Shown: one piece after another, positions 34,297 to 40,218 of the stretch
Position numbering within the stretch: the first letter of the stretch is position 1
Layout of the letters: the number at the start of each line of letters is the position of its first letter
Source: Streptomyces coryli
GTDB taxonomy: Bacteria > Actinomycetota > Actinomycetes > Streptomycetales > Streptomycetaceae
Assembly (NCBI RefSeq): GCF_011044975.1
Contig: NZ_JAAKZV010000021.1
Location: 1-60,421 of the forward strand
Direction: 5' to 3'
Length of the DNA stretch: 60,421 nt
Translations under genes and position numbers: made by a program
Notes under the pieces: model-generated
Told to the model about the DNA's origin: nothing
The model's database searches: none
The model's input: only the letters and a program-made list of their open reading frames with translations

Positions 34297-34605
34297 TCAG
34301 AGCTTGATCTCGATGTCGACACCGGCCGGGAGGTCGAGTCGCATCAGAGAGTCAACGGTCTTGGGGGTCGGGTCGAGGATGTCGATGAGGCGCTTGTGCG
34401 TGCGCATCTCGAAGTGCTCGCGAGCATCCTTGTACTTGTGCGGCGACTTGATGACGCAGTACACGTTCTTCTCAGTGGGCAGCGGCACCGGGCCCGCGAC
34501 CGACGCACCAGTACGCGTCACCGTCTCGACGATCTTCTTCGCCGAGGAGTCGATGACCTCGTGGTCGTAGGCCTTGAGCCGGATGCGGATCTTCTGTCCC
34601 GCCAT
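34297..34605 (-). CDS. rpsJ: 30S ribosomal protein S10 (uS10, NusE)
   Basis: A 102-residue protein that works in the ribosome and, with NusB and NusG, in antitermination. It starts [20 protein letters not shown] and has [20 protein letters not shown]. It is the first gene of the S10 cluster and is preceded by a leader of about 250 bases with several hairpins and the element shared with the str operon. Confidence 0.98.
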
Positions 34606-34650: not shown

Positions 34651-34678
34651 CCGACCCACGCGGTCGGGCGTGTCGCAA
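34651..34678 (-). promoter_or_regulatory. 28-bp leader element, S10 copy
   Basis: On the minus strand this reads TTGCGACACGCCCGACC then GCGTGGGTCGG. The last 17 bases form a dyad CCGACC / GGTCGG with a five-base loop. It ends 45 bases before the rpsJ start. The str operon leader carries the same sequence with one mismatch at 39411-39438. Confidence 0.85.
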
Positions 34679-34864
34679 CCCTTCCCGCAATAAGCTGCGG
34701 AATTTTCCTGCTGGAGGGAGTGCCGTGGCTGGCGCCCCGCATACGCTTCCCGGAAGATTCCCGTACTTCCGTCCCTGATGAGGGACGACGAATACCTGGG
34801 ACTCGCTTCCAGTCCTCCCGGCGGGAGGCGCGCAGCATCGGCTACACAACCGAGCAACCCCGAC

Positions 34865-34895
34865 AGTCTGCCATATCAGGACGGGCCGACGCCAA
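34865..34895 (-). promoter_or_regulatory. Weak candidate promoter of the S10 operon
   Basis: Minus strand TTGGCG followed after 19 bases by CAGACT. The spacing is long and the boxes only partly match the vegetative consensus. It is the best candidate I see in the gap and would give a leader of about 250 bases. Confidence 0.3.
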
Positions 34896-34924: not shown

Positions 34925-34970
34925 GAAAAACGTGAGCGGCCTCACCCCGAAACGGGGTGAGGCCGCTCAC
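34925..34970 (-). terminator. Strong terminator of the str operon after tuf
   Basis: An exact 18-bp stem, GTGAGCGGCCTCACCCCG against CGGGGTGAGGCCGCTCAC, has a three-base loop and on the minus strand is followed by GTTTTT. It lies 16 bp past the tuf stop. It is the best intrinsic terminator in the window and separates str from S10. Confidence 0.95.
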
Positions 34971-38976: not shown

Positions 38977-39348
38977 TTACTTCTCCTTCTTGGCGCCGTA
39001 GCGGCTGCGAGCCTGCTTACGGTTCTTGACGCCCTGCGTGTCCAGGGAACCGCGGATGATCTTGTAACGAACACCCGGCAGGTCCTTCACTCGGCCACCA
39101 CGCACGAGCACGATGGAGTGCTCCTGCAGGTTGTGGCCCTCACCCGGGATGTAAGCGGTGACCTCGATGCCGGAGGTCAGGCGAACACGCGCGACCTTCC
39201 GCAGCGCCGAGTTCGGCTTCTTCGGGGTGGTGGTGAAGACACGCGTGCAGACGCCGCGGCGCTGGGGGGAACCCTCGAGCGCGGGCGTCTTGTTCTTCTC
39301 GACCTTGTCCTGCCGGCCCTTACGGACCAGCTGCTGGATCGTAGGCAC
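38977..39348 (-). CDS. rpsL: 30S ribosomal protein S12 (uS12)
   Basis: Decoding-centre protein, 123 residues, started by GTG with GGAGAAGTA just before. [19 protein letters not shown] opens it. The streptomycin-critical residues are wild type: Lys43 in [12 protein letters not shown] and Lys88 in [12 protein letters not shown]. It is first of the str operon. Confidence 0.98.
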
Positions 39349-39410: not shown

Positions 39411-39438
39411 CCGACCCACGCGGTCGGGTGTGTCGCAA
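39411..39438 (-). promoter_or_regulatory. 28-bp leader element, str copy
   Basis: Minus strand TTGCGACACACCCGACC then GCGTGGGTCGG, with the dyad CCGACC / GGTCGG. It ends 62 bases before the rpsL start and lies about 100 bases after the predicted transcription start. It differs from the S10 copy (34651-34678) at one base. A GC-rich hairpin, roughly CCCGCTGCG..CGCGCGGG, precedes it, as a different hairpin precedes the S10 copy. Confidence 0.85.
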
Positions 39439-39547
39439 GCCCTGGAAATCTCCCGCGCGATTTGCTTCGCAGCGGGGGAATGTGCTCCAGCGTGGCGGAG
39501 ACTTCCGCGCACACGGGAACCCGGGGACACCCCAGGCACAAGGTCAG

Positions 39548-39576
39548 AGCCTACCTATAGCATTCGCTCCGGTCAA
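39548..39576 (-). promoter_or_regulatory. Promoter of the str operon
   Basis: Minus strand TTGACC and TAGGCT are separated by exactly 17 bases, a close match to the streptomycete vegetative consensus (TTGACR, TAGRRT). Transcription would start near 39541, giving a leader of about 190 bases that includes the shared element. Confidence 0.75.
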
Positions 39577-39584
39577 AACAAGCC

Positions 39585-40100
39585 CTAAGCCGACGAGGAC
39601 GCGACCATCGCCACGATCAGCAGGATGAAGGCCACCGTGCCGATCGCCAGATAGCCGATCACCATGCCGGCCACGGCCATGCCGTCGCCGCTCTCCCCCG
39701 TGCGCTTGATCTCGGCCCGCGCCTTATGGCCCAGGATCACCGCCGGAATGCAGGTGATGCCCACCATGGGCACCAGCGCCCCGCAGACGAGCGAAGCCAC
39801 CGCCGAGCTATTGGTGGGCGGGGCCGGGGTCGGCAGGAAGGTCTGAGGCACGGCAGGGGCCATCGGCGGGCCGAAGCCGCGCGGCGTCTGCGGGTGGTGA
39901 ATGCCCTGTGGCAGATCTCCCACGAGCAGGTGCAGCTCGCCATACGTCTGGGCCTTGTACGCACGCGTCATCCGCGTCTCGTACTCCGGCTGGGTGAGCC
40001 GCCCCTCAGCGAACCCGGCCTTGAGCACATCCACCGCCCGCTCGCGGTCCGCATGAGACACACGCATGGTGGGCGGACGCCCCTGATCCCACGGCTGCAT
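39585..40100 (-). CDS. DUF1707 and DUF4190 domain membrane protein
   Basis: A 171-residue protein. Residues about 12-64 match DUF1707 (MRVSHADRERAVDVLKAGFA, then QPEYETRMTRAYKAQTYGEL), a short domain of unknown role found at the N-terminus of many actinobacterial membrane proteins. A Pro-rich linker follows, then two hydrophobic segments (VASLVCGALVPMVGITCIPA and VAGMVIGYLAIGTVAFILLI) in the DUF4190 pattern. The start is uncertain: ATG 40100 is used here, but TTG 40106 sits eight bases after GGAGG, and ATG 40067 begins the domain. It lies alone between rpoC and the str promoter. Confidence 0.82.
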   Translation of the reverse strand: MQPWDQGRPPTMRVSHADRERAVDVLKAGFAEGRLTQPEYETRMTRAYKAQTYGELHLLVGDLPQGIHHPQTPRGFGPPMAPAVPQTFLPTPAPPTNSSAVASLVCGALVPMVGITCIPAVILGHKARAEIKRTGESGDGMAVAGMVIGYLAIGTVAFILLIVAMVASSSA

Positions 40101-40218
40101 GGACAAAGCAAGCACCTCCCCACCGAACGGCGCAGCAACGCACCTACACCATTGTGCTTGACGCGTGGCGCTTACGCCGAGTTCCCGGCCGTTACGGACC
40201 GGTGTAGCCCAGGAAACG

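Follow-up and report, generated by a model that had tools for sequence, protein, structure and literature searches.

The leaders of the str (rpsL) and S10 (rpsJ) operons of actinobacteria share a conserved 25-nt core, CGACACRCCCGACCKCGKGGGTCGG, which was found with up to three mismatches in 135 of the 148 genomes sampled from one class (that of G007, the source genome of the Frankia locus L025), against five for the reversed pattern. We tentatively read the element, from its sequence and distribution, as a sequence-specific site in leader RNA that would be recognised by one trans-acting factor, probably in feedback by a protein of the S10 operon, and hold this reading with somewhat less than even confidence. 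A 25-nt word present in about nine of ten class genomes, at one or both operons, offers a direct experimental handle, as a single mutation can be placed in two leaders and a single RNA bait can serve to capture the factor that would bind it. Its relevance could extend to growth control, production strains and the biology of this large bacterial phylum.

The window, i.e. the whole stretch of 60,421 nt of Streptomyces coryli DNA analysed here, was originally predicted to carry two 28-nt copies on the minus strand, differing at one base, before rpsL and rpsJ. Both copies are exactly where they had been placed (Table 1), and a single A/G difference separates them. The element had been placed 62 nt ahead of the rpsL GTG (39348) and 45 nt ahead of the rpsJ ATG (34605); these distances were reproduced, and so were the dyad CCGACC/GGTCGG in both copies, the differing hairpin ahead of each and the 2-bp spacer between rpsL and rpsG (ORF ends at 38977 and 38974). 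Pfam confirmed S12, S7, S10, EF-Tu and L4 in the window, and an Rfam 15 scan of the window gave no credible match at either leader, with no family's gathering score reached. Searching the 60-kb window for a 17-mer with up to three mismatches returned two matches against 0.99 expected, both without a mismatch, and we estimate the chance of a 28-mer recurring with at most one mismatch in 60 kb at about 4e-6. The element goes far beyond chance because it is conserved in other genomes.

Table 1. Coordinates of the leader elements, genes and neighbouring features of the str and S10 operons in the window
Feature	Position	Strand	Details
Shared element, str (rpsL) leader copy	39411..39438	minus	read 39438..39411 = TTGCGACACACCCGACCGCGTGGGTCGG; conserved 25-nt core 39435..39411
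Shared element, S10 (rpsJ) leader copy	34651..34678	minus	read 34678..34651 = TTGCGACACGCCCGACCGCGTGGGTCGG; conserved 25-nt core 34675..34651
rpsL (S12), str operon gene 1	38977..39348	minus	ORF and Pfam
rpsJ (S10), S10 operon gene 1	34297..34605	minus	ORF and Pfam
Predicted str operon promoter	39548..39576	minus	TTGACC, 17 nt, TAGGCT; start predicted at about 39541; matrix score 14.0 (strong)
Weak predicted S10 operon promoter	34865..34895	minus	TTGGCG, 19 nt, CAGACT; start predicted at about 34858; same simple matrix, score 6.0
Hairpin immediately ahead of the str copy	39439..39490	minus	-22.2 kcal/mol; sequence varies between genomes
Hairpin region immediately ahead of the S10 copy	34679..34720	minus	-12.6 kcal/mol
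Terminator-like hairpin plus T-run in the tuf-rpsJ gap	34926..34970	minus	separates str from S10 in the window; read from the sequence
5′-terminal YGUG and hairpin	39520..39542	minus	GUGCCUGGGG...CCCCGGG; second conserved str-leader feature

The position of the element is tied to the two operons. A scan of a genome collection (84,980 species) with the exact pattern returned 35 stretches, the majority from Streptomyces and the others from Actinomadura, Spirillospora, Actinoplanes, Frankia, Brevibacterium, Arthrobacter, Sinomonas, Phytoactinopolyspora and four MAGs; rpsJ or rpsL lies downstream of 33 of them, 83-280 nt from first base to gene start. One of the remaining two is 8 nt away from the end of its contig, and the other is in a Chloroflexi MAG, where none of the 12 query genes was found nearby. 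The 28-mer with up to three mismatches occurs in 13 of the 198 genomes of the phylum sample, at 19 places, all 19 before rpsJ or rpsL. In the class sample there are at least 150 places of the core, and 133 of the 150 listed have a located rpsL or rpsJ within the next 320 nt. By mismatch, the fractions before these genes among the listed places are 56/58 (none), 49/50 (one), 24/26 (two) and 4/16 (three), so that 129 of the 134 listed places with up to two mismatches precede a located rpsL or rpsJ. Three more are at contig ends: these listed places, with zero or one mismatch, are no more than 200 nt from the end, which lies in the direction of the expected gene. Fourteen listed places are elsewhere, two with two and twelve with three mismatches, which exceeds the five of the reversed control.

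The same result was obtained when the leaders were collected irrespective of the element. Of the 148 class genomes, 134 had a located S12 and 132 a located S10, and up to 420 nt upstream were cut from 133 rpsL and 115 rpsJ genes; with the G284 rpsL leader excluded, which has only 12 nt upstream, 132 rpsL leaders were counted. The 14-nt half of the core, CGACACRCCCGACC, is present with up to three mismatches in 120 of 132 rpsL leaders (113 of them at zero or one) and in 62 of 115 rpsJ leaders (58 at zero or one), compared to 12 and 9 in shuffled leaders, none of which reached zero or one. It is also fixed in orientation, as the 247 leaders gave 171 sense matches at zero or one mismatch, compared to two antisense matches at one and none at zero. 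The core at up to two mismatches is 53-250 nt from the start codon of rpsL and 67-253 nt from that of rpsJ. Examining the upstream regions of many actinobacteria, which the original prediction had proposed as its check, thus shows an element conserved far beyond Streptomyces and mostly before rpsL or rpsJ (133 of the 150 listed places). The prediction had also named what would speak against it, namely absence from both leaders of other streptomycetes, wide occurrence outside r-protein leaders, or transcription beginning downstream of it; in the tests made, no such evidence was seen, with the upstream position of the starts judged from predicted promoters.

Promoters scoring at least 11 were predicted in 103 of 180 element-bearing leaders, compared to 12 when shuffled; the S10 promoter of the window (score 6.0) is below the thresholds applied in this survey. 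The predicted start is upstream of the element in 100 of the 103 strong-promoter leaders, at a median of 115 nt, from which we infer that the element is inside the transcript. The spacing from predicted promoter to element runs from about 46 to 264 nt (5th to 95th percentile), and spacing that varies so widely fits an RNA better than a DNA-bound factor. When structure was averaged over leaders by position, hairpins tended to sit just before the element, and the stretch after it was weakly structured, T-poor and more A-rich. T-runs after the element are rare, with TTTT in 7 of 120 rpsL and 5 of 60 rpsJ leaders. A dip in structure at -60 to -21 relative to the core, between two structured zones, was also seen in rpsL and rpsJ leaders alike, suggesting a layout common to both leader types without a common sequence. 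Ahead of the str promoter of the window, between rpoC and rpsL, there is a gene for a DUF1707/DUF4190 protein (39585-40115, minus strand).

What is conserved in the element is its sequence and not the dyad. Across 179 distinct windows around the core, the best-kept positions are 3-6 and 8-11 (ACAC and CCCG, separated by A or G), 16, 17 and 19, giving the pattern ACACRCCCGACC.CG.GG, and the flanks outside the 25 nt carry no more than about 0.7 bit. The flanking TTG that had been considered part of the element is not conserved, as the core starts at CGACAC. The 6-bp dyad had been put forward as a functional feature, and this did not survive the comparison of genomes. Among 82 distinct 25-mers the pairs 9-25 and 11-23 each fail in 25 (for 11-23, 18 cases are G-G), 12-22 fails in 33 and 13-21 in 27, mostly without compensation. 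In an alignment of 87 sequences (77 of the 82 distinct in-class 25-mers and 10 others; each of the five in-class 25-mers excluded differs at one or more columns that the alignment gives as invariant), covariation in the dyad was 0.066 compared to 0.070 when shuffled, and 77.4% of the dyad cells were paired compared to 77.7% when shuffled, with slid registers reaching at most 63.0%. The dyad hairpin can therefore form in many genomes, but it is not what selection visibly holds.

Other structures were considered for the core. An alternative hairpin, 8-11 with 16-19, occupies nearly invariant columns: three of its four pairs are the same in all 87 rows, and 35 of the 87 have C-U at the remaining pair, 9-18. 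Long-range pairing between the element and other parts of the leader did not exceed that in shuffles, and neither mimicry of rRNA nor complementarity to it rose above shuffles. Imitation of the protein's rRNA site is frequent among r-leaders, though not universal. In a comparison with the 16S rRNA of three genomes, the same hairpin, CGACCCCGTGAAGTCGG (loci L301 and L302), was the best local match in two of the three, with scores within the eight shuffles made for each. We take this hairpin to be h42. Around the 16S genes (eight loci of five genomes, with a sixth genome yielding no locus) the best sense match to the 14-nt half had 9-11 letters, compared to 10-11 when shuffled; one locus had two antisense matches of 12 letters.

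Not every genome carries the element at both operons. Counting it as present up to 260 nt ahead of the start codon, the 113 genomes with both leaders comprise 51 with a copy before rpsL only, 50 with both, 10 with a copy before rpsJ only and two with neither; these two (G304 and G335) have partial copies 353 and 347 nt before rpsJ, past the cut-off. The absence of an rpsJ copy goes together with a neighbouring tuf: tuf is within 420 nt of rpsJ in 53 of the 55 leaders without the copy (the 51, G304 and G335, and two from genomes without a readable rpsL leader), compared to 16 of the 60 with it (Fisher p=8e-16). The 60 include one leader, G307_rpsJ, whose match has three mismatches and is probably due to chance. 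The distance from tuf to rpsJ is 74-326 nt in the 51 rpsL-only genomes; G304 and G335 have no tuf within 420 nt, and p becomes 6e-18 when they are excluded. Since tuf adjoins rpsJ where the rpsJ copy is absent, a copy-less S10 operon is probably transcribed from str, riding on its transcript. Here tuf adjacency serves as a proxy for co-transcription, and 16 genomes have both an rpsJ copy and an adjoining tuf. The element thus seems to head transcripts rather than genes, one per transcript. The window itself has a tuf-rpsJ gap of 381 nt containing a terminator-like hairpin and T-run, so its S10 operon probably has a separate leader of its own. In C. diphtheriae, the accessible part of one study describes rpsJ-rpsQ as a primary operon of eleven genes with a detected start (PMC5784534).

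The two copies of a genome also agree with each other at particular positions. Core position 18, which is T or G, is the same in both copies in 45 of the 50 two-copy genomes, compared to 29.4 expected, and in 31 of 35 when repeats are removed (p about 0.001). Twelve positions were compared in the 50 genomes; agreement exceeds expectation at 18, 21 and 22, slightly at 15, and at none of the remaining eight. Flank similarity within a genome (0.284) does not exceed that between genomes (0.286). On a tree of S12-S7-EF-G, position 18 changes about four times per copy, and by our reading of this tree three changes are common to both copies (a Streptomyces-like clade, G325 and G264), with one private to each. 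An independent-pairs sign test on the tree had too few pairs to reach significance. The agreement at position 18 hints at one reader for both copies.

Taken together, the part of the original prediction that stands is an element common to the str and S10 leaders, conserved far beyond Streptomyces and inside the predicted transcript; the part that does not is the dyad as its feature. On the reading that we favour, one trans-acting RNA-binding factor would read both copies, and its binding during transcription would set the extent of transcription or translation of the operons. The S10 operon is covered by a copy in its own or the upstream str leader in 111 of 113 genomes and the str copy is missing in 10, which favours a protein of the S10 operon as the factor; such a ribosomal protein would feed back on its own synthesis. 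L4 would be the first suspect by E. coli precedent, and L4 itself may take perhaps half of the confidence given to the whole reading. Against a feedback leader counts that ribosomal leaders usually show covarying structure, and the core shows none. We also consider it possible, though rather doubtful, that the element is an undescribed linear RNA word present phylum-wide, and not a folded leader, which would define a two-operon regulon with an actinobacterial elongation or RNA-binding factor as its reader and not a separate repressor for each operon.

The main rival is processive antitermination or elongation control, in which the nascent RNA would load an elongation complex (NusA/NusG/NusB with S10, i.e. 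NusE) and polymerase would be kept going through both long operons. That the element heads long operons, at a median of 115 nt after the predicted start, is consistent with such a role, as are its linear form without covariation and the fact that S10/NusE is the first gene of one target. The element is like the boxA sites of NusB-S10 in being a linear RNA word in a leader, but its sequence is unlike E. coli boxA, no clear copy was found around the 16S genes (the eight loci above), and the places away from rpsL and rpsJ are few and weak (14 among the 150 listed, with two or three mismatches). Binding of boxA by NusB-S10 is described in the accessible text of PMC10931766. On balance we regard antitermination as unlikely.

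Distinctly less probable is a site of RNA processing or stability, where an endonuclease or a protecting protein would recognise the word and set the half-life of the message. The hairpins just before the element and the weakly structured, T-poor, A-richer stretch after it would suit this, and there is a precedent in smegmatis, where such sites are enriched in 5′ UTRs and have a cytidine at +1; but the element is found mostly at two operons, though every mRNA needs decay, and it is much longer and more fixed than a cleavage consensus. We give a similarly low probability to a DNA site, bound by a transcription factor or a roadblock protein or acting as a polymerase pause sequence. The absence of RNA covariation and the very high conservation at the level of bases are what such a site would show, but the variable distance from the promoter (about 46 to 264 nt) and the orientation fixed to the gene are easier to reconcile with RNA or polymerase than with a repressor bound to DNA. 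That the element is part of a short upstream frame for a leader peptide is highly improbable: core positions 15 and 18 do vary like third codon positions in one frame, but the third positions 3, 6 and 9 of that frame show little or no variation, variation at position 7 alters an amino acid, and T at position 1 turns the first codon into TGA in six of 179 sequences. The coding frame was accordingly rejected.

For comparison with known systems, the element resembles the L4-S10 leader of E. coli in being a 5′ leader element before rpsJ; we know of no sharing of that leader with the str operon. It differs from the E. coli leader, which has an intrinsic terminator, in that TTTT follows it in only 5 of 60 rpsJ leaders, and no Rfam match was obtained. 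The E. coli S7 site is the rpsL-rpsG spacer, which is reduced to 2 bp in the window. As far as the accessible portion of PMC2704228 describes them, the E. coli S10 leader mediates L4 feedback before rpsJ on an eleven-gene S10 operon, S7 control covers the genes for S12, S7, EF-G and EF-Tu, and a Pelagibacter rpsL motif forms the leader of a fused str/S10/spc string. The Pelagibacter motif is a three-stem junction with some covariation, confined to Pelagibacter and marine metagenomes, whereas the element, found in Actinomycetota, is linear and shows no covariation. The element shares its leader position at rpsL with the attenuators of Naville and Gautheret (2010), which, in the accessible text, are intrinsic terminators in Listeria, Xanthomonas, Pseudomonas and Rickettsia, and before fusA in streptococci, without a globally conserved rpsL-leader sequence or structure (PMC2965389). 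The rpsJ motif of the Peptostreptococcaceae, first found in Clostridioides difficile and covering three genera of this one family, is likewise an r-leader candidate before rpsJ, and the accessible part of its description mentions no actinobacterial member (PMC11109978).

Of the features expected of an r-leader, a conserved element in the 5′ UTR of r-protein genes was found, with the 5′ UTR assigned from predicted promoters, and covarying structure was not found in the core (0.066 against 0.070 shuffled). The element would work like a ribosomal-operon leader element; because of the missing covariation, we do not claim membership of an r-leader family. In the literature searched, mostly without subscription papers and supplements, no earlier description of the element was found, and a search with the letters of the core led only to seemingly unrelated papers. 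Control of the str and S10 operons of actinobacteria appears undescribed in that literature. The accessible text of Eckert and Weinberg (2020) reports actinobacterial leaders for L17 and L31 and none for the S10 or S12 operons (PMC7247131), and the accessible portions of PMC2864571 and PMC6429828 hold other leader motifs and not this one. End mapping in Streptomyces clavuligerus, in the part of the paper accessible, gave 150 premature transcripts, 37 of them known earlier, including an unnamed ribosomal-protein leader (PMC8269248).

Outside the class sample the element becomes harder to recognise. The core was found in 21 of the 198 phylum-sample genomes, and 17 of these belong to the class sample as well. 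A diverged form, CGRAACGCCCGRCYSCGTGRRYCGG, precedes rpsL at zero to two mismatches in eleven phylum-sample genomes outside the class sample, six assigned by coordinates (G025, G067, G091, G113, G134 and G178; 124-218 nt) and five by reading the loci (L404-L408; 45-179 nt). The other 11 of the 16 loci read have no r-protein gene nearby and look like chance matches, and the reversed control of this looser, diverged pattern also matches many genomes. In 30 genomes outside the class sample, the 14-nt half with up to three mismatches was found in seven rpsL and three rpsJ leaders, compared to four and two when shuffled; with counts so near those of shuffles, there is no clear element in most of these genomes.

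The str leaders have a second conserved feature at their predicted 5′ end. YGTGYY occurs 2-16 nt downstream of the -10 box in 77 of 103 strong-promoter rpsL leaders (of 132), compared to three when shuffled, and a stem follows it directly in 60 of the 77, compared to 96 of 385 shuffled. The stem varies with compensation (CCTGG/CCAGG, CCCGT/ACGGG and CCCAT/GTGGG), and a stricter pattern of YGUG and hairpin matches 63 of 132 rpsL compared to 4 of 114 rpsJ leaders. This separate 5′-terminal hairpin is the only compensatorily varying structure in the str leaders. No description of str transcripts starting with YGUG and a hairpin was found in the literature searched. Pairing of YGUG with CACR of the element was considered and rejected, as Y and R do not covary.

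Two class genomes have a second rpsL-like gene (L207, G285:C13:800-1350, and G228:C140:32188-32556, 56% identical), and that of G285 also carries the element in its leader. In four genomes of 1.3-1.4 Mb (G235, G251, G290 and G332), a variant of the element, CAACACACCC, is found before rpsL, with additional CGACACGCC-like words farther upstream, ahead of the promoter.
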